A stretch of 49,339 bases of DNA from Ectocarpus siliculosus (lineage: Eukaryota > Sar > Phaeophyceae > Ectocarpales > Ectocarpaceae): assembly GCA_000310025.1 (NCBI GenBank), contig FN649750.1, forward strand, positions 1,877,299-1,926,637. Reading direction: 5' to 3'. Of the stretch, positions 16,401-49,339 are shown one piece after another (position 1 is the stretch's first letter; every line of letters begins with the position of its first letter). The notes under the pieces were generated by a model, which was not told the DNA's origin, ran no database searches, and saw only the letters and a program-made list of their open reading frames with translations. The position numbers and the translations under genes were made by a program.

Positions 16401-19400
16401 GCCAGTTGTTGTCTATAATCCCTATCAAATGGCCCCTCGACTATCGAGGGGCCATTTGATAGGGATTTTAGACAAGAGACGGCTGAAGTGGGAAGGCAGC
16501 TTTGCACTTGCACCCAGGGATGGAACTGTCTGCACCATCCAATCAGCAGGCATCGTTCGCTGTTTTTCTTACATGTCAGAAATTGCGCAAGAACGCCCAA
16601 TTTTCCGTGCGTGGTAAGGAGGTTAAGCGGCTACGAACACGCCCCCCCCCCACACACTAAATTCAGGACCGGGGACACAGGCCTTCGAGAACGTCGACGA
16701 AGACATAGGACGGTAGATGACGAAGACAATAAGTTCAAATGTGATAGCGGCTTCGAATGCGAAGACCGTGTTCATGTAGTCGCGGAATGTCCGTGGTACG
16801 AAGAGGAGAGGGAAGTGTACATGACTGAGCTGGGGAAAATAGAAGGGAGGTACAGGGAGATGTTTGAGGCATGGAATAGAGAGGAGAGGACGGTAGCTGT
16901 ACTGGGGAGTAGCAAGTGGTTTGAAAAGGCGGGGGGGGATATCGTTAGACTAGACAAACTAGGGAAGGCGTTTTTGAGCCACCTTTGGCAAAGTAGGAAG
17001 GAACGATTGGCCATCGGTGATCGGTCCTGTGGGAACAATGCTCCGTCCTCTCGAGGACGCGTGGTCAATGGTCTAACCGCCAAGGCATGCAAAACATAAG
17101 AGTACGCCCCCCCCCACCACTGCTGTTCGCGTTTGTGGGCGTCGCCCCTGTCACCAGGTCAGCGCTACGAGCATATATTTCGAGAGCCTGCCCTACCAGG
17201 TGGATCAAGAGACCGGTCTCATCGACTACGAGGTCAGTGGGTTGGCCATTCGTGCTTCCCTTTGGTGTTTGTTTGGTTCCGTTTCGTTCTTCTGGTATAC
17301 GGCCCCTTCAAGACTTTTCATGACGCAACAGCCACGTCGTCCGACCACGGAGATCTGCGGGTGATGTTCTTTTCGTTCGGCTCTGTGTGTTTTTACACCG
17401 TTTCAGTGGCATACTGTAGAAGACGGTACCATGAGCTAGGCGGCAACAAAAGATGCTGCTACTGCACAACTCGGTCATCGCGATCGGGCTGATCGTTATA
17501 ATATACTATCCAGTGGTAGGCCTTCCTTCACGGGGTCTTTGCGACGGTGACCTGATGGTAATTTCGGCGCATTTTCTGCAAACCCGAACTCAACCCCCTG
17601 ATGTGTGACGCCATCGATGTGAATCAAGGGTTTGGAGCGCCAGGCGAGGCTTTTTCGGCCGAAGCTGATCATCGCGGGGGCTAGCGCGTACTCCCGAGAG
17701 TGGGATTACGCGAGAATGCGGAAGGTGTGTTCTCTGTTGCTGTTGCTACTTTCGGCTGTCGTGTTGTACATGCCCATCTCGGCACTGCCATCTCGGGACA
17801 TCGTCGACGGAGATTTGTTCAATTGCATGTTTTCGTTCCGCGTAGTTTTCACTGCTTGGAAGGCTGACATTTTTTCCACGTCACCCCCCCCCCCTCCGGC
17901 CCTCCATGTATGCTCCGCAAAGATCGCTGACGAAGTCGGTGCCTACCTGATGACGGACATGGCACACATCTCAGGACTAGTCGCCGCCGGGGAGGCGAAC
18001 GACCCTTTCCCCCACAGCCACGTCGTCACTTCCACTACCCACAAGAGCCTCCGGGGGCCCAGATCCGGCCTTATATTTTCGAGGCACGTATTTTGCATGC
18101 TCATATGTACGAACTGCGGCGTTTTTGGCGTCGGCCCGCTGAGCAGGCTTCACTGATTTCTGCTTGTTATTTGTTTTGACTCTAGCTCTGCTTCATCTCC
18201 CGCCCCCCGCCCGCCCGTGCCTTGGTGGGCAAACCCCAGCCAGAGTTTGGCAAGCATTCCCTCTCGTTTGAGATGCGTTGTTGTTAGGTCTCAGTAATTT
18301 ATCATTCGTGATACGACTCCAAGAACGATAGCAACCCCCCTCCCCACGCGCGCGCGCCCGGCCCCTGATGCACTTACGATTCCTCCGTGGCATTTTTGTC
18401 CGGTGGCGTTGCGTAACGTGCGTGTGTGTTCAGGCGCAACGAAGGCATCAACGACCTGGTGGATTTCGCGGTGTTCCCAGCGTTGCAGGGCGGTCCTCAC
18501 AACCACCAGATCGCTGCCCTCGCCGCAGCCCTCAAGGAAGCGGCCAGCCCGGATTTCAAGAGGTTTGTGTTATTATTTTTCATTTTTTTCGATCTTGCTC
18601 ACAGCCTCGACCCACGAGCGCACGCCAGTCTATGGGTTTGTGAGTTCATTCTGTAAGCGTGCGTGGCCGTGTGTGTGCTGGGCATCGAACCCATTGTTAT
18701 TCGCCAACCAATGAAAGTATGTCGATATTTTCGGGAAAAATACGTCTTTTACGTCCGTCTGCGGGCTCCCTTGGCGCGGGGGGCGGAGAGGAGAGCAATC
18801 GACACCTCCAAGTATTGTAAGTACGTATTTTAGGAGCAACCTCATGAGTATTCGACCACTTTCCAAAGAGACTTCACTCTGTTGTTTCTGTTTTGGAGAC
18901 CGAATCATGAAGCATTTGTAACTCACTTGACTATGAGACTGTTGTCTCCAGGTACACGTGTGGACAAGTTCCCCGTGGGATGTGTGGTATGGATGAACAA
19001 CCGGTTCAACCTCTGGTGGAGAGGCTGACGAGTACGGATAGTTGTGTTGTGTGTCAGGTGGGGAGCAACCTTGTGTTGAAGCAAGGTTCAGCATCCAACC
19101 TACACTGACTCTGTCTGTGGCAACACCCCGAAGGTAGATCTCCGACAGGTCATCTGACGTGACAATCTACGACAGTCTGAGGTGGCATTCACATGACGGG
19201 GAGTGCCGACAAAGAATGGGTCTCCGAGCATTCAAGTTGCCGTGTTCAGATGTACACCGAGCGGCCTTCATGCGGGACTCCTGGGTTCCATCCCTTGGAC
19301 CCTAGACAAGGCTTCACGCGAAAGGTTTTTTTGAAGGCATTGCATGGACCATTGACTACCACCAGAGTTCGGGTTCGTAGTGAACCAACCTCCGTCCCTC

Positions 19401-20616
19401 CCTCCCTCTTCATATTCCTGCGAGTAACTGCATGGTTCGTTGTACAGCTAAGAAGACGGAGGGCAGGCAACACACGAGGTTTACCTATCAGTTTACAGTG
19501 CGTCTCGTTCATCCCTATCTTTCTCTGATCGAATCCCCTCGCGACAGTTATATCAAGAAGGTGAAGACCAACGCAAAAGCTTTGGCGGCGGGACTACGGG
19601 CTAGGGGACACGAGGTGGCCACGGACGGCACGGATAACCACCTGCTGCTGTGGGATCTCCGCCCCAGGGGGCTGACCGGATCGAAGATGGAGAAGCTCCT
19701 CGAGGCCTGCAGTATCTCGGCCAACAAGGTGTGTCATCATCGTTTGCTTGTCGCGCACGTGGTTAGTTTTGCTCGAGTCTCTCCAAGCGTGTACCGGTAT
19801 ATGTTAACGCCGCTTTGTGTGTGCGCACGCTACGAAGGTGACGCGAACTTTAACAGAGGGGCCGGTTGTGAGTGTGGCTTTTCCAGACGGCACGGTGCTG
19901 TGAGTGAGCCCCCAGAAAACCTGACAAAGCAGCGTAATACGGACTACCTTCGTTCCTGCAACGTCAATGAAGCGGCGATAACAGAAATAGACGGTTGCAC
20001 ACCAAAACAAGCTTCCGCAGACATTGCCTGTAGCAGCAGGGGTCCATCTAGTAGTAGATCTTCCCTTTTTTGGGATCCCACGACGAGTGCGTGGACTCGC
20101 CACTATCTGGCCGAAAAGACCGGGCTACCTGGCCCGTCGCGTGCCGTAGTAGGTTTACACTTCTGAAGGATAACTCGCGGTCAGTATTAGTAGAGGCAAC
20201 TAAACAATGTCGTATATTCCGTTCCTGTTCCAGTGTTTCCTCACGGTAAAACCTTTTCCTGGCCGTGCTCCCTGCCAACCCGCCCCAAACACCACACCCG
20301 CATCTGCACATGCTGCTCATAGAACACGTTGTACGGGGACAAGAGCGCAGCATCCCCGGGCGGGGTACGGCTAGGAACTCCCGCCATGACCACCAGAGGC
20401 CTGGACGAAACTGACTTCAGAGAGACCGTAGCGGGTTTTCTGGATAGAGCGGCGTGTTTAGCTTGCGCCGTGCAGGAGAGAGCCGGGTCGAAGAAACTCA
20501 CGGCGTTTGTCACGGAGATGGACGCCGACGAAGGGGTGAGGGAGTTAAAGGGAGAGGTGGAGGCGTTCGCCGAGAGGTTTTACTATCCGGGAGGGGCCGA
20601 GGGGGCCCAGCGGTGA
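13402..20616 (+). CDS. Serine hydroxymethyltransferase (glycine hydroxymethyltransferase)
   Basis: PLP enzyme converting serine and tetrahydrofolate to glycine and methylene-THF. Ten exons: 13402-13797, 14711-14793, 15388-15508, 15651-15791, 17158-17232, 17629-17724, 17923-18083, 18434-18562, 19548-19728, 20323-20616; about 558 residues. Landmarks in order: [105 protein letters not shown], the Schiff-base site [10 protein letters not shown] (K345), [48 protein letters not shown]. All expected segments are present in order. The seventh intron keeps frame only with a GC donor (AG|GCACGT at 18083/18084). The N-terminus has a hydrophobic leader with Phe after a possible cleavage site (ATC|FACS), then about 80 Arg/Ser/Ala-rich residues: an organellar presequence, plastid or mitochondrial undecided. 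MASTQEES is a possible internal start for a cytosolic form. Confidence 0.94.
14405..14505. repeat. Short tandem repeat of CTGACTGGTAGTCC
   Basis: Three near-copies of CTGACTGGTAGTCC (14413, 14431 and 14477 approximately) in SHMT intron 1. The last two extend into AGTGGTMATCMTGCTT. It resembles a tRNA D-arm only superficially; no clover-leaf follows. Confidence 0.7.
15850..15890. repeat. GTC trinucleotide run and poly-T
   Basis: About eight GTC units followed by a T-rich run just after SHMT exon 4, inside intron 4. Simple repeat. Confidence 0.8.
16411..16473. repeat. Near-perfect long hairpin in SHMT intron 4
   Basis: Two arms of about 30 bp (16411-16440 and 16444-16473) are reverse complements with one mismatch and are separated by only CTA. 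Pairing can continue about two bases outward. The left arm contains CCTATCAAATGGCCCCTCGA. It sits just upstream of the LINE fragment. It could be a fold-back element end, a hairpin RNA source, or a snap-back cloning or assembly artefact. Confidence 0.85.
16620..17118 (+). mobile_element. LINE-like retrotransposon 3' fragment in SHMT intron 4
   Basis: The frame ending at 17099 encodes a zinc-binding tail, C-x5-C-x4-H-x4-C ([17 protein letters not shown]), followed by [11 protein letters not shown]. This is typical of the C-terminus of non-LTR reverse transcriptases. The frame ends [15 protein letters not shown] and is followed by a C-run. The DNA over the last ~60 bases matches the dispersed repeat copies A-C, tying that family to this LINE. 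The reverse transcriptase core is absent, so the copy is 5'-truncated. It is in sense orientation to SHMT and ends about 40 bp before the exon 5 acceptor. Confidence 0.8.
17041..17118 (+). repeat. Retroelement 3'-end repeat, copy D (attached to LINE frame)
   Basis: Contains GTGGTCAATGGTCTAACCGC, CAAGGCATGC and GAGTACG-(C)n, matching copies at 81, 1390 and 31076. Here the repeat is the end of the LINE coding frame plus its tail. Confidence 0.75.
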
Positions 20617-21560: not shown

Positions 21561-24486
21561 CTATGAAAATCCGTTTACCACCGTATCTTCCCCCCAAATC
21601 GCGCTTATTGTCACATAAAGCACCACGCCAGCCAACAGCACGGCCACCGTCTGAGTCACTACCGCCAATGTGGACTTGTGCAGCTGTGCTAAGGCCTTCC
21701 TGGTTATCGCAGTGTCCCAGTGATCGATGCCCAGCTTTTCATCCCGGATTGCAAGCGCCTGTCGAAACAATTTCTCGGCCTCCTCCTTCCTGCCTGCGTC
21801 GCCCACATTGACGGCGAGCCAATTCAAGGTATCTGCCACATCCGGGTGGTCCTCGTCAAGTTTTCCCTCACGAATTGCGAGCTCTCGTCGATGGAGCTCC
21901 TCGGCCTTCGCGGTTCTGCCTGTTTTCCAGGCGCACACCCGAGGTTATGCAGCGTGAATGCCACATCCGGGTGATCGACGCCTAGTTTTTCCTCCTGGAT
22001 CGCAAGCGCTCGTCGATTCAATGCCCTGGCGTCCTTCATCCTCCCTACCTTGTAGGCCCAACCCGCGAGTGCATTCAGGGTGGAAGCCACGTCCGGGTGG
22101 TCGACGCCCAGCTTTTTCTCACGGATCGCAAGCGCTCGTCGATGAAACTCCTCGGCTTCCTCCATCCTCCCTACCGTGACAGCGTACGACCCGAGGTTAC
22201 TCAGGCTAGATACCACGTCCGGGTGAGCGACGCCCAGTTTTTCCTCCTGAATCGCAAGCGCTCTTCGATAGAAGTCCTCGGCTTTCTTCATCCTCCCTGC
22301 CTTGGAAGCGCAAACCCCGAGTTCATGCAGCGTGTGTGCAACGTCCGGGTGATCGACGCCGAGCTGTTCCTCCCGGATCTCGAGCGCTCGTCTATGAAAC
22401 TCCTCGCGTCCTCCTCCCTCCCTACCGTGACAGCGTACGACCCGAGGTTACTCAGGCTAGATGCCACGTCCGGGTGAGCGACGCCCAGTATTGCCTCCTG
22501 AATCGCAAGCGCTCGTCGATAGAAGTCCTCGGCATCCTTCATTCTCCCTAGCTGGTGAGCGCAAACCCCGAGTTCATGCAGCGTGCGTGCCACGTCCGGG
22601 TGAGCGACGCCCAGCTGTTCCTCTCGGATCTCGAGCGCTCGCCGATGAAACTCCTCGGCTTTCTTCATCCTCCCTACCTTGGAAGAGCAAACCCCGAGTT
22701 CATTCAGCGTGAATGCTACGTTCGGGTGATCGACGCCAAGCTTTTTCTCCCGGATCTCGAGCGCTCGTGGAAGAAAACTCCTCTGCTTCCTCCATCCTCC
22801 CTGCCTTGACAGCGCAAACTCCGAGTGCATGCAGCGTGTGTGCAACGTCCGGGTGATCAACGCCGAGCTTTTCCTCACGGATCGCGAGCGCTCTTTGATT
22901 CAACGCCTCTGCTTCTTGTATCCTCCACATCATGTTAGCGCAAAGCCCGAACTTATTCAGCGTGATTGCCACATCTAGATGGTCCATTGTACCAAGGAAA
23001 TTATCTTTGGCTGGAAGGAGTAGTGAGTATTTGGCGCGGCATTCAAACCAATCCCGCCGCTCCAAGTGAGAATCTGCCGTCTTTCCCAGAATTCTCGCAT
23101 ATTCAGCGCTCGAAGGGTCTATTGCATCTAACGCCGCGTCGTATGGCTGCAGAGGGACATCCTCGCCCCCAACTCGCTCAACTTCATCCTAGATTTTCAC
23201 CAGCTCAACACCCGAGAACGCAAAGAGAGCCCGAACGCTCGAGGCATACCCTCGCCACCGAGACAGTGCTGTGACTCGCGCATCCTGGTTTGCAGCAAGG
23301 CGTCCCTGAATGAATTCAGCGTGTTCGTCGTGGACGCGGTGCAAACTGCCGTCCTCTACCGTGAGGATCGACCAGCGCTCGAGGGTAGTCATGACTGCCT
23401 CGGCCGCCTCTAGATCCTGTGCAGACAAGTCATCGCCGTAGAGCAACACCGCCGCGACTTTTCGTGGGAAAGATAGCCCCTTCGGTATTACCGCCAAGGA
23501 GAGGTAGAGCTCTTTGTTTTGGGGGTTGTCAGAAGCGAGTTCGTCCAGCCCGGCACGAAGAACGGCAGCGCGGCAGGACAGGGCCTTCTCATCTCCGCCT
23601 CCCTTCTGAATCTTCGTGATACGGTTGAACGCCACCCGCCAAGTCTTCTCATCACGCCTCCTACGGACCAAGCCCCACCTCCCCACCATGGCAAGGTCCA
23701 GCACCACAAACTCACAACGATTCATCAGATCGTATGCAGATTCCGGAAGGCGCGCGTTGTCAACCAGATCGGCCGCACGTCGTAGCACCAGCTCGGCCTC
23801 GTTCGGCAGCATCTCGTCGAGGCGTTGTGGTGTCTGTTCTGGAAGCAGGGTGTCCTGGCGGGTGGTGTAGAGCACCCACAACACGCTTGCCCTCTTCAGC
23901 TCTTCCAGCACCTCTCTCTCCCAAACGTCATCGGCCACCACCAGGAAACGCCGACAGCTCTCGTCCACCACCTCCCGAATGTAGGCCGCCCCGTCTTCGG
24001 GATCGTTCTCGCTCCCCGCTTTCCGAAGCGGCCTTCATCGCTTCAGCATCACGGTCTCGTATACCATACCGGCTAGACGAGTCATGAGCTCGGGCAGCCG
24101 CCGCTTTGCCCCCTGCCCCACCTGTAACCACAACACCCCCTTGTGGAAATGTGCCCGCACGTCTGTTCGACGGACCACCATCCCGGCGGCAGTGGACTCC
24201 CCCACGCCGCTGGGGCCAGCTAGCCCAACCATCCTCGGCTCGTCGGACAAGACACTCGTGCTGTTCCCGATGCCCAGACGATCACACGCTTCGGAAACCA
24301 CTGCCTCGCGCTTGACGTACGAAACCTGAATTTGCGGGGCTCCGGAAGGGATCTTTACGCTGCTCGCCGCGTCAGCAATGTTGTGTTGCTCCTGCGGTGG
24401 GGAGCCAGGTCCCGGACGATAGGGTCGAAAATGACGCGGGGAAGTTTGCGGGCAGCAGAAAACAATTTACTCTCAGCTGTATGTAC
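21561..24486 (-). pseudogene. NB-ARC-TPR receptor-like gene, decayed
   Basis: STAND-type ATPase followed by TPRs, a family known in Ectocarpus as candidate immune receptors. Order on the minus strand: a segment starting after an acceptor at 24487; P-loop GPSGVGEST with Glu (GAG) where Walker A needs Lys; kinase-2 FLVVADDVW; VLYTTRQ; an MHD-like LHRVHDEHAEF; then ten TPR units of 42 residues (unit pattern LGV..GR...AE...RRALAIREEKLGVDHPD) and a hydrophobic helix VVTQTVAVLLAGVVLYVTIS near the C-terminus. Breaks: a frame change near 24400; in-frame TGA at 24035-24037; in-frame TAG at 23189-23191; an extra T in a T-run near 22776; a 1-nt loss near 22405; another frame change near 21935. The breaks and the Walker A change mean no full-length active product from this copy. 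Translation continues in the same frame across both stop codons, so the decay looks recent. Confidence 0.85.
21650..22985 (-). repeat. Tandem array of 126-bp TPR-coding units with a 252-bp duplication
   Basis: About ten 126-bp modules without introns. Units 4-5 and 6-7 repeat as a pair: the DNA around the SLSNLGSYAVTVGR unit recurs at 22171 and 22421 (251 bp apart, one base short because of a deletion). This indicates a dimer duplication or gene conversion. Confidence 0.85.
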
Positions 24487-27400
24487 CTGAAGCCGAGAGA
24501 AGCTCACCGTATAGATGCACATCATGAGCAACCAAGACGAATGACGTCGTCCGTATCCACACAGGAGATCGCACCATCGGCGGTCATCACATCGACGATA
24601 GGATAACAATCCGCTCCCCACTTCACCAACTCTGTGCGATTGTGGGCAATTCTTCTAGAGTATGTCTCTTCGAAAGCGAGGAGCTCACGTCCACACATGG
24701 GACTGAACAATGCAAGCTATCGACGACGGATCAAACAGCGCTCTGTGCCTGTGAAGGCTGTATCGCCACAACTTGCCCATGCACATATACGAAGTAGAAC
24801 GCACGACGGGCGTGTCACCTGTGCCGCCGCAACCCGGTACCACACTTCAGCACGTAGTATACTCGTCTTTGCCGAGATACCGCTAATTCCCCTGTGTCTG
24901 ACAGAGTATACCCGAACATCTACGATTTCGACATGAACGCAATGGATTTACGCCTGCCTCAAGCCCCCGTACCTGGAGTTCTGTTTCCCTTGCGGTCCAG
25001 CTCTCCTGTTTGCCAAGAAGCTCCACCTAAACGGTTCGGTGAGGCAGAGACACATGGAAAAAACACAGAGGACGGCCAACCTATCATATTCTGCGGGAAT
25101 CTTGTATCGGGTGTGGTTGAGTTCTGCGTAGCTTCAGGTAAGCGAGAAACATACACGTGTCACAGGACGAACCTCGTGTATGTATCATACTCAAGCTCGC
25201 CTTACCGAAACCACTGCTAGATAGAACACTAGGGCACGGAAAAGCAGGATTATCTTTGGCGGCAACTTCTCGTCTGTTCGGTGTGTGCGTACGTCTTCGT
25301 CAAGCCATAGCCTAGATCATCTACGCACAGCAACTGGCCCTGCACAAGCTGTTGGTGTCAACCTTTCAAAGGGCATGGTTCCGACTTGGGTGTGTCGAAA
25401 ACGTACACAATCCGATATTAATTGAGCAACTGTCACGTCAACGCCTACATACTCTTTCCATCCTCATCCGGTGCAAATGTCGTTCAGTTAAACGGAAAGA
25501 CTGGATACCGGAAAGTAAACGAAAAAACGAACGCGACAAGGGCACTCCTACCCAGTGTCCCAAAGTTATCGGGTGCCGTTTGCGCTTCCGTATGGATACT
25601 TGGATGCCATCTACAACTTGTCAGGTGGAGCATGCCAAAATGTTTTGCTCTTGACCACAAACATGGTGCTTGCTGCGAGATCTAGCGAAGCTTTGTCACG
25701 TATCGTAAGATCATTGTCCCTGTCCTCCAGCTCCTTGGTAGACGACCCGAACTCCTTGTTTCGTCGAACTTTGGCGTGATCTCAGGGGACCCACCAAAAC
25801 CTAGCACGGCCACGCCAATGGCAAGACAGCCAACAACCACGCTTCTGCCGAGGAAGCCTGAGACCCGAAGCTCCTTCTCCATGGCCTCAAGCCGTTTAGC
25901 GTTTTCTTTAGTCTGGACCTGAGGGTGGGAAATGCAAGAACCGCAAGGGAACGCATGCGCAGCTCTCCAACCTGTGATGATCTATTATTGCCGAATAAGT
26001 TTGACCAGCAACTGCCACTCTCCGACGCCTATGATGCTAGAAGCAGGACCGCAATAGAACACAACGACAGCACCAGAGCAGGGGTCCCGACTGAGGTGAC
26101 CGAGAATCTTCCAAAGATCAAGTCGCACAAAGAGTGTGTGTGGGTTCAAGCACACACCAGGACACCAGAATATTACTGTGGTACGGTTCCCTGTACTCGT
26201 GATGATGCTCCCGCCACCATGTGCTGCAACGAGAAAGGTGGGGTGGCGTCAACTACTTGGATGGCAAAATCTGGCAGAGAGAAACTGAGCACACAACATA
26301 TAGCACATCTCACACGCTTTGCGTCCTGTGTGTCGAGGAGCAAATAGCTTGCAGTAGCAACAACGGTCGCAGTAGCAGCCCCAGAAACTGCTGCGCCTGG
26401 GTGGGTAGAGGAGCTGCCGGAAGTGTTTGTTAGGACACCGTTTTGTTTAACATAGCAGCCTCAAAGGGTGCATTTTAGGCGCACTTGCGAGCATCAATAC
26501 TGATGTATTGAATCTCGGGCGGGAATTCCGATCCCTGAAATAGAGGGGGAGTGCCGAATCAATTGTGGAATAAGATCTCCCGCTTGGCGCGCTCGCGAAA
26601 AATACCACCCCGATTGATGGTGCATGTTGGCTGGTTTCCACGATACTCACTAACGGATTTAGCTCGGGGAGCTTTTATTCAGCCCGTGACACGAATGCTA
26701 AGTCGAATATATTGAACCGAATCCGAGCTGCGGACCACGGAGGAGATGAACTACTGCATAGCAGATGGGTTCAACATTGGTGACCTACAGCAGTAAGTTG
26801 GCAAATTGTGCGAAAAAATACGACCAGATACCCAGGGAATATGTTGGAAAATGTCCCGATCCTGTTCACTTCCTCGTTGCCTCCCAACAAAATCGGGGAC
26901 ATCATAGGTCCGTGTACTTCGGACCCGTGGCGTCGGACGCGTTGGTCCAGCGCGTCCCTGCGACACCGGGGCCGCGCTGTCGTCTCTCTCGCAATATCAG
27001 CATGACTGCGAAGGTCAAAATGGATTCTTTCAGGTTTGGCGTGTATACGCGGAACGTGTCCGTTCCTACGGGCACCGGTTGCTCGACCACCCGGTACTAC
27101 TCTCCCCCGCCCGTCATGGCGCGTCACGTACTGCGGCACTGGTGTTGTGCAAGGCGCATGCCGTCGCCATTGTACTGGACACAAAAGGCGTGTCGGTTCC
27201 CCCCTGAAGTACAGCAAGCCGCCGCTCAGTCACAAGTCGTGGCCAAGACAGGCTTGTAGGGATCGTTTCATATTTCAAGGCATGGCACTTCTCGTGTAGG
27301 CCTGGTAGGACTCAGTCCTAAAGCATTACGATTAGAACCAGCCTACCTATCCGCCCCCCTCCTTTCGTTTCCTACCCACGAAACCTTCGTGGGCTTGGTG

Positions 27401-28828: not shown

Positions 28829-31800
28829 TCATCGACTCCTCCTCCTTGGCTTTCTCTGAACCTCCGGCGAAACCCACGGATTTGTTGGCAGCATGGGACT
28901 TCTGTTACAATTGCGATGTTGCGGGGAACGGGGGGTGAGGGGTGGGAGGTGGTGAGTTGGGGGAGGGGGCGGCCTCCTCTCTGGAATTTGCGTCTTCGTG
29001 CGTCCCGATACCCAAATCAACCATCGTTGTGCCAAGTGCATGACGAGAACGGAATGGTTCCTTTGCATCCAGGAAAAATTAATTCATTGGGAAGAAACAA
29101 GACACTACATACTCATGTGAGTACTTCCGTTCCTGACCCGAAGCCCGAAGCCGGAACGGAACGGTTCTTCTGCAGTAAGGAAAATGTAAACGTCGTGAAG
29201 AAACAGGACACAACTTCTGTGGCACTCTGTACCTGTCCCGAAGCCAGCGCGGATGGCGACATGGCCGACTTTACTGGCGGTCGAGTAGCGGCAGAAGCAC
29301 CAGTGGCGTTTTTCGGGGAGGAAGCCGCTGGATCGTTGGCGTCGTCGTTGTTGCTGCCGCCGGGGTCTGCTGCCGAGTCAATCTGGGGGAGCAACGCCGA
29401 AGAAATTCGACGGGTAATCTCCTGGCAACGATGCGAGGAGGGGGGGTGGGTAGAGGTATCAACGTTGAGCGACACGTATCCTGCCTCGTGACGAAGGTGA
29501 TTAAACAACGACATAGCAGTAACTACACAGCTGCAACAGCTGCAACGACAGCAGAACTCGTGCCACAGCAGCAAGCCGAACTACAACAACTACGGCAACC
29601 GCGGCAACGGCTGCCACCTAAGCCGGTCTGCATACCTTTGCCATGACGGAGGTTTTTCTTGCAACGCTGACGGAAGATTTTCGTCTGGACTGTCCCCCTT
29701 CCCGCTTCGACTCCGCCGCTGCGGCGGCCTCCGCCTCCATGGCCTGAAGAGAGCAGCGGAGAGGCGAGAATGGGAGAGGAGAAGGTTGACTATGACCATG
29801 ATTCCCCTTGTATCCGGCCTCAACACTTCTGAGTTTATTGTTGTTGTCGTGAAGAGCGTGGACGCCTCTCCAACCAATCAAAATCACCCAAGAAACGCGA
29901 CCCTTTCCCCCCTCGTCCAGACGAGCGATCTCGGCTTACCAACTCGTCGGCCGTGTCTTCCCCGTCGACGTCGACCCACTTGGTGAAGGCGTACACGAAC
30001 TCTCCGAAGCTTATGTCGCCGTTGCTATCCCAGTCCATCTCATCCCATCGCTCCTGCGGTTACGAAGCGGCACCGATGCTCATCGCCGTTTGTTGACCAT
30101 CTTCGCTTGGCACTTTTTTAAATTAATGTTGAGTTATGTTCTCCCCCTCTCCCCCCCCTCCGCCACCCCCCTTCTTCTCGTCCCATCGACTAAGGCTGTG
30201 GACTGCACAGGAACAGCCACAACATGAGCAAAATGACGAAAACGTTTGTGAGCCCTGAAGAGGTGTTTACTGTACCAGGTTTCCGTAAGCTACGGAGTTT
30301 CCCCCACGGGGAGGGGATCGTTTCTTTTTCTGAAACCAAACCCCCCGGGGGGAAATGGACGTACCGCGGGGGGGTTGGTTTTATTATTTCCAACGCTACC
30401 CCGGGGGGAAGCCCCCCCCTGGGGGGTTGTGCAAAATAATGATGGTCCAAACACCACACACACAGCGAGTGGTGAAACTGAGATGGATAAGGTTTACGAG
30501 CAAGCGTTCAACCAGCAGAGGGAGGAGGAACGTAAGAGCGACAAAGACGAAGAGAAAAAAGACAGCAAGAGGTACCATTGCCTAAGCTCATGCACAAGAA
30601 TTCGCAGTTTGTCCGCAGGAACAAGATAGTTTTATGCTTCGGTTCTACCTTGAGTTGTGAGATCCAAAAATGAATGCGATTATTTTTTCCCTTTGTGCGC
30701 AAGGTTTCGTCAGCATGCTATATGGTACGTTTCAGCTGACTCCAGGGATGATAAATGCAAGAAATAGACAAACAAACGAAAGCATTTCACCCTTAAAACA
30801 ACGGCGAGGGCCAAGTGACAAACGGTACACCTAAATCTCGCTCGAAGCGCAGATCTGCAAGTGAATTTTCCGTCCCATATCATGCTTTTTGTGCTCCGCG
30901 ATGGAACAAAATCGACTCAGAAAATAAAGGAAATACATCCCCCTCGGGGGGAACTCGTGGGAAAAATGGTACCCCGGGGGGAAATCGACACACCCGGGGG
31001 GATTTGTTTTTTGGTCGAAAACGATCTACCCCGGGGCTAAATCAACGAACTCATGCTTCCAGGCCGAAAAGGTAATGGGGGGGGGGAGGGGGGTGTACTC
31101 ATAGTCGTGCATGCCGTAGTCGTTAGACCATTGACCTCGCATCCCTACAAAGCCGGGACGGAGCACGCCGGGTTCTCACCGGACCAGGCTCGGGGGGGGA
31201 ACTCTAACCCGGGGGGAAAACTCCGTAGTTTACGGTATGCTATATTCGGAGCCATACACTCTCCGTGGGGAGCAATTACATCGGCAGCAGCAATGTTGGG
31301 GATTGTAACGGATGTCATTCAGCGTTTCCTAGTACTGCAGCGCAAGTATGGCTACCGCAGCACGCACATTGCTTACGTTCATGCTCAATTCGAGTATTCT
31401 GGGGACAGGCAGAATAGGCGCACTTCTGGAAAAGCTGTCGAAGAACAAATCCATCGCCAAAATAGAAATAATGCTACAACAACAACAGCAGCAGCAGCAA
31501 CAACAACGACGGTACCTGGGAGAGAATGCTCATGCTGCCTTCGTCCTTCTGCCCGTTTTCCGCCACGACGATCATCACTTGCTCCCGGCTGATTACCCCC
31601 TTGCACTCCTTGTCGAACAACAAGTAGGCGTACCTTCAATTAGCAGCCAGAACACAGTCTTGCGTCAGAAAAGACCATTAGGTGAACGGCATTACTTTTA
31701 AAGAGAAAATGACACAATCCCGTGGGACTCTCAGTGACCCGGCTAACTCGTGAGAGCCGGGGTACTCCACACCATTCGCTACTGCTGTAACGGAGGATAT

Positions 31801-33215: not shown

Positions 33216-33282
<67 letters not shown>

Positions 33283-35474: not shown

Positions 35475-35705
35475 TAACAGCAGTACGCCTACAACTGCAA
35501 CGGCAGTGCAGCGGCTGTGGTACGCTGCGGGTGGCGTGTGTGGCTGAGGTTTTGGGTAGAGAAACGCAGAGTGATTTATTATCTTCACACAGACGCCCGA
35601 GCTGTCTTCACCTGACGGTTACAGACTTGGCAACGCCTTCACAATACTGCATCAAACCCAATGCAGTAGAATAGAGCCGTTCTTGTACTACAAGCACTTC
35701 CAACA
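35475..35705 (-). repeat. Copia 3' LTR
   Basis: 231 bp. On the plus strand it begins TAACAGCAGTACGCC, where the partner LTR has TGACAG; the terminal dinucleotide is mutated (in element sense the end is TA instead of CA). It ends CTTCCAACA. Confidence 0.93.
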
Positions 35706-35942
35706 TGTCCTCTCAAGAACTACGTCATTCTACAGTTCCGATACATAAGACCTCTCGAAACGATATACATTCGTGTCCTCTCGATACAATGCTGTCTAAA
35801 GAACTTCTAACTCATTATCCGTATCTACTTGTTTCATTCAGCTGCTATCGAACAGCGATGGGTTTTCTTCCTACAACACAAACTCCCGAATTTATTTCAA
35901 CACATATACACATACATACACCGATTTGAAGAGGGGAGGTGG

Positions 35943-37683
35943 TTACACTCCTAGGAGCAAGAGGCGGTTCCTTAGAAACTTCACCGCACCCAAACTCTTT
36001 GTAAGAATGTCAGCTTTCTGCGCGTCAGACTCAATGTACTCCACTGCGACTACCTTGTCTTCGATAAGCGACCTTACATGATGATACTTGATGTCTATGT
36101 TCTTCGTACGCGGCGTGATCTTGTTGTTTACACTAGTCGAGATCGCGCCAGTGTTGTCCTCGAACATCCTCGTCGCCTCTTCTTGCGTCTGGTTGATGGT
36201 GCTCAGAAGGTGACGGTAGTGGATGATCATCGTGCAGGCTTGGACATCGCGACATATTCTGCTTCCACCGAGGAGAGGGCCACCACCGTTTGCTTAACTG
36301 ACCTCCAGTCCACCGGTCCACCTGCCAGAAACAGAACAACGCCTGTAGTCGAGCGACGGTCATCTCCATCGCCTGCGAAGTCGGAATCAACGTATTCTGT
36401 CCGCAGGTTTCCTTGTTCAGCGTCTTCCCTGTACGTTATCCCAATGAAGCTCGTTCCCTTCAGGTACCGGAGCAGTCGCTTCAGTTTGGCCATCGCCTTC
36501 GGGCCTGGTTTGGCCATGTTCCTGGAAAGCACCAACACCGTGTGGGCGATCTCCGGCCTCGATCCCCGTCCATTCCGGTGAACAGGATGTCGTCTACATA
36601 AACAAGGAGAATTACTTCCCCCATTCAGGACGTATAGGCGGGGGTTCGCCGTGCTTTGGATGAATCCGATTTCCAACAAGAACTCGTGAAACGTGCCATT
36701 CCATCCCTTCGGGGGTAGGCGTAGACCGTAAAGCCACGACTTCAGTAGCCAGACCTGCCTAGCTTGTTCCGACGAACACTGGAAACCCTTCGGAGGTATC
36801 ACGTAGATGGGTTCCGCTTCTTCGGGGATTCTGGCATGGAGGAATGCCGTCTTGATGTCAGCTTGCTTGAGAACGAGAGCTTGATGTGCAGCTATAGCAA
36901 TCATGAGATGAACAGATTCCATAGACGCCACTGGTGCTGCCTTGTCCGCTCCCGTATCAGCTGCATGAAAACCTTGCACCACTACGCAGCTTTTCGGGCG
37001 AATCGGTACACCATCCTGTACTTCCACTTGTGTACGAATTTCGACGGAATCAGTGGAACACCCTCCGGCGGATCAACCCAGTCAAATACGTCATGCTCAT
37101 ATAGCGACTGTCCCTCGTCGCTCATGCTCGCTTTCCAGAGTTCTGAATCCGGTCCGCTTACCGCTTCGTCGTAGTTCGCGGGGTCGGAAGGCATGTAGCC
37201 CACCTCACCAGGGCTGCCCGTCCCCATGTTTCCGAGCTCGCCGCCAGTCAGCAAAGCATGTTCGATCCTCTCGTACGCTTCCTCCGTCGTATGCAGCGCC
37301 TCCTCAGTCGTATGCAGGTTCAGCACCTGCCTTAGCACTGGGGCCCTGCTGCTCCGCCGTAATTCTGGTTGTTGCGGTCCTGCTGCTTCTGCATCCGCGT
37401 CGTTTTCTTCATCTTTTGTTTCGACAGAGCCAGGCTGGTAAATTGTTTGACTCAGGTCAGGAAGCGGGTCGTGTCCTATCTTGGGTTTGGCCACGTCGCG
37501 CGTCTCTTTCTCGCGAAATGAGACCTCTGCTGAGTTGGTGATTTTGCGTGGATCGGCAGGGTCCCACAGCCGGTCGTCTTGTTGTGCGTGTTGCATCCCA
37601 CCAGGTACATCTTCTTCGCCCTGGCGGCCAGTTTGTTCGGCCTGAATCTTGCCTCTACGTGCTTGAAGGCTACCGATCCCCAC
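35943..37683 (-). pseudogene. Copia reverse transcriptase / RNase H, broken
   Basis: RT start EAVSGPDSELWKASMSDE near 37170; VLKQADIKTAFLHARIPEE; KSWLYGLRLPPKGWN; active-site YVDD at 36600-36589, in a different frame from the flanking segments. The usual ~80 residues between YVDD and the RPEIAHTVLVLSRN block are missing, an internal deletion of roughly 240 bp. RNase H segments: VDSDFAGDGDDRRSTTGVV, VALSSVEAEYVAMS, then in another frame KNIDIKYHHVRSLIED and ADILTKSLG. Frame changes near 37000, 36600 and 36230. Confidence 0.9.
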
Positions 37684-38583
37684 TCATGGATGTGTGACAA
37701 ACTGCCAAGTTGCTTTTCTTGCCATACCTCTAGCGGTGCCTTGCCGTCCAAGACATCCGTTGGCGTGCGGTTCTTGATGTATACGGCAGTTTTGACGGCC
37801 TCTGCCCACAGCTGGGCCGGAAGGTGAGGCGCGCCTAGGAGAAGGTTGCGAGCAGTACCAATGATGGTGCCGAATCCGCGCTCAGCTATTGCGTTTCCTT
37901 GAGGGATGTAAGGGGCATTCGTTTGAATAGTGATCCCAAGTGACTCGCACAGTGCCTGGAACCCCCCCTTGAACTCAGCTCCCCCCCACATTGTATTCTA
38001 CCGATGCAGAGACCTTCAGGATCAGCGACATCCTGGACAACCGTTTGTAGCGCCTCAGCAGCTTCGTCTTTGCTCTTGATTGGAATCCCCCACCTCATCC
38101 GCGACTTGTCATCCGTGAACATCACGAGGGATTGGCAACCCCCGTACGACTCGACGGGATGCTTCCCCCAGAGGTCAACATGCACGATCTCGAGCCGTGT
38201 CTGGGCGCGTGGGCGGTCAGATGGAGGGTGGCACAGACCTCACAGTCACCGGATTCGATGTTGCGGCTGAATTTCACGCCGGTAGGCTCCTTGTCCGACA
38301 GCTGCTGTAGCGTGCGCGGGTTGCAATGGCCCATCCTCCGATGCCACATGTGCGCGTCTACCTTGGTGCGGTAAATTTCCTGCTGGGCTTGCGGTGCGTC
38401 CACGTCATCCAATATGATATTGGCGACATACATCCGCGGCATTTCGGTTGAAATGGGAAAGGTATTCGTACCGTGAATGAGGGCCGGAGGAGACGAAAGA
38501 AGATCACACTTCACCCGCTTTTCGTCCAGTGCTCCGACCCAAAAGATGTTCGCTCCCAGGCCCCGAACCAGCAGAACTTCCAA
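37476..38583 (-). pseudogene. Copia GAG-pre-integrase and integrase, broken
   Basis: HHCC finger: WHRRMGHCNPRTLQQL ... CEVC (about 38346-38230). Integrase core: HVDLWGKHP with the first acidic residue; the second catalytic region (usually ...DNGGEF) is scrambled across a frameshift near 37985; then APYIPQGNAIAERGFG with the Glu, and AEAVKTAVYIKNRTPT. Three frames are used in 1.1 kb. Confidence 0.88.
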
Positions 38584-38620
38584 CGCTACCGGAATGACGT
38601 GATCTTGAGAATTTCGGATC

Positions 38621-38956
38621 TTAAAACGTTAGAGTACCCTTCTTGGTGGCACTCGACGTACCACATGATCCTATAATGCGCACCGCGCAGGCAGCCGGGT
38701 CGCGTACGTGTTTGGCCATGCGCGATTCAGTGCAGACCATGTGGCCAGACGCTGCTGTATTGATGTATACGGTCCTGTCACTTACAACCCGGTTCACCTT
38801 TTCCACTTGAAACACGTTGGTGTACGCAACAATCTCTGTTGCATCAGGCGCCTCCACCGCCTGAAGGTGAGTAGTGGCACCGAGATCCTCTCCCATCGCT
38901 GCGGCAGGCCTTGTTTGCACCTGCGGCTCACCAGCGGCGCGCTCCTCGAGTTGCAC
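38621..38956 (-). pseudogene. Copia protease region, catalytic Asp replaced
   Basis: The protease motif reads VYINTAASGHM near 38770-38735, whereas copia proteases have an Asp-Ser/Thr-Gly triad at this place. Asn replaces Asp and Ala replaces Gly, so the protease of this copy is expected to be inactive. Confidence 0.75.
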
Positions 38957-39081
38957 CGCAGCAGGCCTCTGCTCCTACTCTTCACCAGCGGCGCGCTCCT
39001 CGTGCGGCGCCGCAGCAGGCTCTTTGTGCGCCTGCGTGTCGTCTCCGATAACAATCGCGAAGGCCTCTAGCTCACTGCTGT

Positions 39082-40249
39082 CTACCTGGACCTGCGTGAA
39101 CCATGCCTGTGTGGTGGGTTCCTTCGTCGCGTGCGCCTGTTCTTTGGCGTCCTCTGCCTCATGCGAGAGGCGGAGTGGGCAATCATGCCACCCGTGCTCG
39201 TTGAGTTGTGGCCGTACCTGCAACGTCCCCGGTTGTTTTGGCCATTATCCTGGCCCCGTCCTCGACCTCTACCTCCGGAGGCTTGGCTGCCGCGACTTCT
39301 TCCGCGTGCGTCTTGCGCATGTCCCGCGCTGTCTCCTCCGTGCGAGTTCCCCTTCGAGGAACCACCGTTGCTGTTGTGCCCGCTCGATGCACCATCGCTG
39401 TTCGAACCGCTTGCGGTTCTGCCGCCATTTCCTCGACGGCCTCGTCCACCACGCCCGCCTTGCTTACGGAAGCCACGTGCCCCTCCGTGTGTGACCGTGT
39501 TCAACGCACGGCCGTGGCTGCCGGAGCCATCATCGCTCAAAGACACTTTTCCGCGGGTTTGCATCGCATGGTACGCTGTTGCACGATTGGCCACATCGTC
39601 GAAGTCCAACGCGACACGACCACCACTCGGCTTCTCGCACAGCAGCAGTCTTGAACGACCCGTAGTGATTGTCGGGGAGCGGCTTTAGAAAGGCGTGTGT
39701 CTTCCTGGTCGGAACGACGGTGTCGCCAAGAGCGTCCAGCTCTATGCAGATGCGGCGTAACTCTTGAATCACGCGCGCAGGGTCAAAATGGTCTGTAGCG
39801 GACACTTCGAGAGACCCGAACTTGTCATGCAGCTCCTGCATGCGGAACACGCCGTCGACGCGGAACTTCGCTTGCAGTGCGACCATAGCACTGCGCCCGT
39901 CACCGAATTCATCTGTCCCGATCGGGGCATACGTTTGAACCACCTGGGATGCCACGCTGGCGTACCCGTCGGCGCAATCCGATGTCGCCAACGGCAGACG
40001 AGTGTAGAGTTTTCTGTTCTTTTCTTTGTGCTCATCCGCCAGCTTCTTGTGTGCTGCGGCCTCGGCCGCGGTAGCAGTTGCAGCAAGAGCAGGTGGTGCA
40101 GTCTCGACTCCAGACATGACCTTTCCCGGGCCAGCTTCGTGCATCAAGGAGCGGAAGAGAGACTGACAACCATGGAAATGCGCCGGATTTCCGTCAAACG
40201 GCGCATACCCTCGCTGGAGATGGTTCGTGGCTTGAGAGGCGGATGCCAT
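39082..40249 (-). pseudogene. Copia gag-like region, broken
   Basis: From 40249 the frame starts MASASQATNHLQRGYAPFDG and contains RKLYTRLPLATSDCADGYAS and HAFLKPLPDNHYGSFKT, typical of the copia gag capsid-like region. The frame changes near 39610, after which a Gly/Ser/Asn/Arg-rich segment follows. The zinc knuckle is eroded (only CRYGH recognisable). Confidence 0.85.
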
Positions 40250-40293
40250 GTTCTGACTCGATTCTGTTCCTCTCCCGCGCGAGGCTCAAAACC

Positions 40294-40523
40294 TGACAGC
40301 AGTACGCCTACAACTGCAACAGCAGTGCAGCGGCTGTGGTACGCTGCGGGTGGCGTGTGTGGCTGAGGTTTGGGTAGAGAAACACAGAGTGATTTATTAT
40401 CTTCACACAGACGCCCAAGCTGTCTTCACCTGACGGTTACAGACTAGGCAACGCCTTCACAATACTGCATCAAACCCAATGCAGTAGAATAGAGCCGTTC
40501 TTGTACTACAAGCACTTCCAACA
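40294..40523 (-). repeat. Copia 5' LTR
   Basis: 230 bp, intact TG...CA ends. The primer-binding site next to it was not identified with confidence (adjacent element-sense sequence starts GGTTTTGAGCC). Confidence 0.93.
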
Positions 40524-49292: not shown

Positions 49293-49323
<31 letters not shown>

Positions 49324-49339
49324 CCCACCCCCCCCCCCC
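49291..49339. repeat. Poly-C run at the window end
   Basis: Nearly pure C with two interruptions. A similar C-run occurs at 61-81. It could be a real homopolymer or an assembly edge. Confidence 0.9.

Follow-up and report, generated by a model that had tools for sequence, protein, structure and literature searches.

The minus strand of a 49,339-nucleotide stretch of Ectocarpus siliculosus DNA (contig FN649750.1, positions 1,877,299 to 1,926,637; the whole stretch is referred to here as the window) carries, from ~24391 down to 21561, a locus that is very probably an ordinary pseudogene of an NB-ARC-TPR gene, one that has lost its function and is now drifting. An NB-ARC module comes first, then a linker and ten 42-codon TPR units, and a hydrophobic C-terminal tail closes the locus; the NB-ARC module and the first repeats share a common strand and a common frame (frame 0). 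The reading frame is disabled by two in-frame stops and three one-base departures, and the coding pattern continues around each of these lesions, which is the first reason for regarding the gene as dead. In brown algae, genes of the NB-ARC-TPR type are described as candidate immune receptors that undergo exon shuffling and alternative splicing (PMC11378527; PMC12879055).

Lesions in the reading frame

The first stop, a TGA at 24037–24035, falls within the NB-ARC module, and the second, a TAG at 23191–23189, follows it. The coding frame resumes on either side of both, as a first-pass annotation of this DNA had described. Further along, three TPR units depart by one base from the length of their sisters. 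A 127-bp unit (22864–22738) with one additional base moves the reading from frame 0 to frame 1 near 22776, a 125-bp unit (22485–22361) with one base fewer returns it to frame 0 near 22405, and a second 125-bp unit (21982–21858), also one base short, shifts it to frame 2 near 21938. The first and second changes cancel each other. The third is uncompensated, so that the C-terminal tail and the NB-ARC module lie in different frames. The course along the locus is thus 0 to 1 to 0 to 2, or three changes, and the “at least four” of the first-pass annotation overstates the count by one.

While alive, the gene would have encoded a STAND-type switch, judging from what is known of the family: the NB-ARC module would have held a nucleotide, the TPR superhelix would have sensed or held a ligand, and the C-terminal hydrophobic segment may have served as a membrane anchor. 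A full-length, unspliced reading of the present locus is halted first ahead of the Walker B motif and again ahead of the TPRs, and close to its end it runs into the uncompensated frame change. No switch protein would be expected from such a template, and its RNA may undergo nonsense-mediated decay.

The NB-ARC module

Read through the TGA, the module yields one match to Pfam NB-ARC (PF00931), with a score of 46.3 bits (E 4.3e-12) against a cut-off of 23.5 bits. On each side of the stop, the halves fall just below that cut-off. The N-terminal part with the P-loop (24391–24038), located by this match and by codon position, scores 22.6 bits when the piece 24038–24466 is taken alone, and the remaining NB-ARC and winged-helix part (24034–23192) scores 22.7 bits. 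The latter holds a Walker B motif (RFLVVADDVW), a YTTR motif, and a VHD triplet in the winged-helix part. Since the module passes the Pfam cut-off only when the stop is read through, the match argues for an interrupted gene.

Comparison with known structures points in the same direction. In the PDB, the read-through is closest to a plant NLR (9jbn, E 6.5e-10) and to Apaf-1 (1z6t, E 1.2e-8), both of which also match the part beyond the stop. The Apaf-1 alignment covers residues 10–332 and spans the stop (residue 118), opening a 7-residue gap soon after it, while the plant NLR aligns as two pieces that leave residues 108–146, the region of the first stop, unaligned. The alignment of Apaf-1 over the stop, with its P-loop Lys placed over a Glu, is a further reason for the pseudogene reading. 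For the read-through NB-ARC, single-sequence AlphaFold2 modeling gave a mean predicted local distance difference test score (pLDDT) of 37.2 and a predicted template modeling score (pTM) of 0.29, values too low for any use of the model.

The P-loop motif is GxxGxGK[ST]. At this locus it reads GPSGVGES, with the Glu codon GAG at 24199–24197 in the position of the Walker A Lys, a replacement that the first-pass annotation had read correctly. The module as read therefore lacks the P-loop Lys of PF00931 and is not a competent member of that family. The Glu may itself be a lesion, or it may be an older functional change that predates the stops.

The TPR array

Between the second stop and the regular array lies a segment (23188–22991) that is open in frame 0 and carries no anchor match; it comprises a linker and a possible degenerate repeat. 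The ten TPR units that follow (22990–21732; 42 codons, or 126 bp, each) are free of introns, and are delimited by a Tandem Repeats Finder period of 126, by anchor positions and spacings, by the translations, and by Pfam matches. TPR_12 is found in four pieces with 65.9, 144, 135.3, and 66.4 bits (cut-off 30.1 bits), and TPR_10 likewise exceeds its cut-off. Together with the NB-ARC match, these scores support the NB-ARC-TPR architecture proposed at first pass.

Anchors were located at 22864, 22737, 22611, 22485, 22360, 22234, 22108, 21982, 21857, and 21731, giving spacings of 127, 126, 126, 125, 126, 126, 126, 125, and 126 bases. Six of the nine intervals are thus exactly 126 bases, and the three that depart (127, 125, 125) correspond to the frame changes. 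An anchor search of the whole window on both strands, allowing up to 8 mismatches, returned 22 matches. All 10 with 6 mismatches or fewer lie in the array, and the other 12 carry 7 or 8, one of them (21556) just past it. Mononucleotide shuffling of the array, repeated 200 times, gave 0.19 matches on average and never more than 2. The first unit (22990–22865) is degenerate and was placed by spacing, without an anchor match. Beyond the array, the last half repeat and the hydrophobic C-terminal segment (LAVVTQTVAVLLAGVVLYV; mean hydropathy 2.28 across 19 residues) occupy 21731–21561, in an open reading frame (ORF) that ends with a stop at 21563–21561.

The units also retain a record of earlier selection. 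Pooled over all ten, the ratio of nonsynonymous to synonymous differences per site (pN/pS) is 0.57 (codon bootstrap 0.41–0.79), a rough sign only, as pairs of units are not independent of one another. The value suggests that constraint acted while the repeats diverged, before the decay, and for this reason it supports the view that a formerly functional gene has died. Individual pairs differ widely; the pair 22485/22234, for instance, has a pN of 0.050 and a pS of 0.141.

Similarity among the units is greatest at a distance of two. Units 22485 and 22234 (22234–22109) are 93% identical, and identity reaches 89% between units 22611 and 22360, a pattern suggestive of an internal duplication of 252 bp. 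Unit 22234, the closest sister of unit 22485, is full length. As the two differ in length, the frame lesion of unit 22485 either postdates the duplication or was not carried along in it.

Age of the probable decay

The two stops give a rough estimate of age. With transitions weighted by 2, 3.3% of substitutions placed at random in these open segments would create a stop, such that two stops correspond to ~61 substitutions in 2796 bases, or 2.2% neutral divergence (95% range 0.3–7.9%); this figure derives from two events only and supposes that none was tolerated as long as constraint lasted. A recent decay is plausible, within these loose bounds. The first-pass annotation had called the gene recently silenced. 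The loss of an open frame through several separate lesions, in a sequence that otherwise keeps its coding pattern, is supported, and “recent” is compatible with a range of 0.3–8% that two stops bound weakly.

Alternative explanations

Several observations weigh against the pseudogene reading. No N-terminal exon or start was identified at the locus, and the gene model is incomplete as a result. The P-loop open frame extends back to 24466, and the sole Met ahead of the P-loop lies just five codons before it. An AG ending at 24392 follows 20 bases that are 60% pyrimidine, and the start of an exon at ~24391, behind a possible 3′ splice site, is a guess. As for the signal of constraint, the eight core units give a pN/pS of 0.62 (0.40–0.97), which is nearer to neutral, pN exceeds pS in the pair 22611/22360 (0.115 and 0.099), and the ratio is silent on when constraint ended. 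Two of the three frame changes fall at short runs of one letter, where sequencing also errs, and the evidence as a whole is of a single kind, namely DNA sequence.

The best-surviving alternative, itself improbable, is that all or most of the lesions are sequencing or assembly errors, for example in a mosaic of collapsed near-identical paralogs, and that the gene is intact in the organism. In addition to the one-letter runs, all three frame changes involve a single base, and tandem repeats of 126 bp are difficult to assemble. However, both stops and the P-loop Glu are substitutions located outside the repeat array. Moreover, the segments of a neighboring serine hydroxymethyltransferase (SHMT) gene, ~1.2 kb as judged by eye, are unbroken; given a rate of 5 lesions per 2.8 kb, roughly two breaks should occur there, and the chance of none is ~0.1, so this comparison is weak alone. 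Neighboring long ORFs of 641, 492, and 451 amino acids, with FtsJ (barely above the cut-off), ankyrin, and RCC1 matches, are open as well, though they were chosen for openness. That the surrounding genes appear open counts in favor of the pseudogene reading.

It is quite improbable that introns or alternative splicing skip the lesions to yield a shorter receptor, an outcome that the first-pass annotation had allowed for. GT..AG pairs were sought for introns of one to three units, with one lesion per test, at the frame changes only, the stops being judged on homology. Frame-keeping, whole-unit pairs do exist, two for the first frame change and three for the second, but all five lack, at their start, any of the consensus donor types tried, and for the third frame change there is no unit-skipping pair. 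Splicing around the frame changes is thus poorly supported. In addition, unit spacing reveals no intron within the array, and since Apaf-1 similarity crosses the first stop, an intron there would probably delete conserved sequence.

A further proposal of the first-pass annotation is that the dead gene could still donate TPR modules to active paralogs by recombination. In a more specific form of this idea, the silenced, intron-free array would act as a donor cassette, from which gene conversion or unequal crossing-over passes 126- or 252-bp TPR modules to active NB-ARC-TPR paralogs elsewhere in the genome. For LRRs, a comparable idea is already in print, as PMC11378527 proposes that LRR-only sequences form a reservoir for LRR shuffling. 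For the present locus, such a role is very doubtful and finds no support. No second NB-ARC or TPR copy was found in the 49-kb window, the array units show no sign of exchange after decay, and no frame lesion is common to two of them, each being private to one unit. Candidate tandem paralogs in the window were likewise rejected, as the outside matches of the protein pieces (E 0.010, 0.13, 0.29, and 0.92) and a single 19-base DNA match (E 0.13) were taken as chance.

Least probable of all is expression of the pieces between the breaks as separate short proteins, such as a TPR-only decoy, even with six open stretches of 127–281 codons remaining, four of them with TPR matches.

Two other candidates were set aside. 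A processed (retro-copied) pseudogene is not favored, as the minus strand lacks any poly-A run of at least six bases over 21600–20900, and the longest exact flanking repeat, at 10 bases, was equaled in 121 of 300 shuffles and so does not exceed chance; an old retrocopy could have lost both its poly-A and its target-site duplication. An alternative genetic code would leave the three frame changes in place.

Relationship to known systems

In brown algae, Ectocarpus among them, NB-ARC-TPR genes are candidate immune receptors, and the locus shares with them the order of an NB-ARC module and then a TPR array on the same strand. The likeness is one of architecture, and the reading frame of the locus is broken. 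The layouts also differ. As Zambounis and colleagues are said to have reported in 2012, each TPR of the family is encoded by a separate exon, whereas the ten units at this locus are contiguous at 126 ± 1 bp. The same study is said to have found high birth and death rates for the family, and these receptors are also associated with work by Teng and colleagues in 2023. The intron-free array may mark a subfamily, reflect an older layout poor in introns, or result from retrocopying.

In a section of PMC11378527, the shuffling of TPR exons in NB-TPR genes is discussed, and that section contains no statement of one repeat per exon. The same source reports that 20 of the 37 ROCO genes of Ectocarpus were earlier predicted to be pseudogenes, with ten in the newer genome version. 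Given this parallel family, and since receptor families that change fast should include dead copies, a dead NB-ARC-TPR gene is expected and unsurprising.

Relatives were sought with scans whose reach is limited to close ones. For the NB-ARC half, no relative was confirmed among viral contigs (2 stretches matched a pattern) or bacterial and archaeal genomes (61 stretches), and for a TPR piece none was confirmed among viral contigs (1 stretch). From 66 stretches, the TPR piece did identify 7 bacterial loci. Two of the seven have an NB-ARC in the scanned ORF (E up to 1e-5); in another, L004, the ORF runs off the end of the locus, and an N-terminal domain there could be missed. The two are an HTH-NB-ARC-TPR protein of Ktedonobacter and a TIR-NB-ARC-TPR protein of Candidatus Fischerbacteria (L001 and L006, respectively), which share with the locus an NB-ARC followed by TPR_12/TPR_10 repeats, at TPR identities of 42% and 35% in the best segment. 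Unlike the locus, both have open frames, additional N-terminal domains, and GLGGIGKT P-loops. Because these bacterial proteins carry the Lys that the locus lacks, they add to the case for a pseudogene. Apaf-1 (1z6t) and the plant NLR (9jbn) align with the locus over the NB-ARC core and the start of the next region, and differ from it in having the P-loop Lys in place of Glu. Their sensor domains, WD40 in Apaf-1 and LRR in plant NLRs, also differ from the TPRs of the locus.

Genomic neighborhood

The SHMT gene lies at ~15.4–20.6 kb on the plus strand, contains several introns, and is convergent with the NB-ARC-TPR locus. Eight putative exon segments, recognized by eye, are uninterrupted; Pfam matches back four of them (in 17623–18153, 19384–20163, and 20323–20613), the first two of which also match the PDB, and the other four are recognized by eye alone. 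An ORF at 16419–17096 on the plus strand, within an apparent SHMT intron, has no Pfam match and by eye resembles the end of a LINE-type (long interspersed nuclear element) ORF. Upstream of the NB-ARC-TPR locus, a minus-strand ORF at 25685–25981 has a hydrophobic stretch (GRSVVVGCLAIGVAVLGFGG) and no Pfam match; it could be an exon of a separate gene.

A Copia-type long terminal repeat retrotransposon occupies 35477–40523 on the minus strand, with RVT_2, GAG-pre-integrase, and SH3 matches between its repeats. The direct repeats of ~229 bp (35477–35705 and 40296–40523) are 97.8% identical, and the element is probably a fairly young insertion. Other repetitive features of the window include a dispersed short repeat of ~60–84 bp, 77–92% identical, at four sites (85–150, 1390–1478, 17055–17118, and 31081–31161), a perfect ACAG tetranucleotide array of 16.8 copies (33216–33282), and a C-rich run of 47 bases at the window end (49293–49339).

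Significance

As an ordinary dead receptor gene, the locus would add a single case to the record of birth and death in a family of candidate immune genes. Its intron-free TPR block misfits the reported description of one repeat per exon and, if paralogs share the block, would help to show which of the two layouts came first. Finally, the similarity of units offset by 252 bp, in the 93% and 89% identical pairs, suggests that TPR modules can multiply within a gene without exon boundaries.
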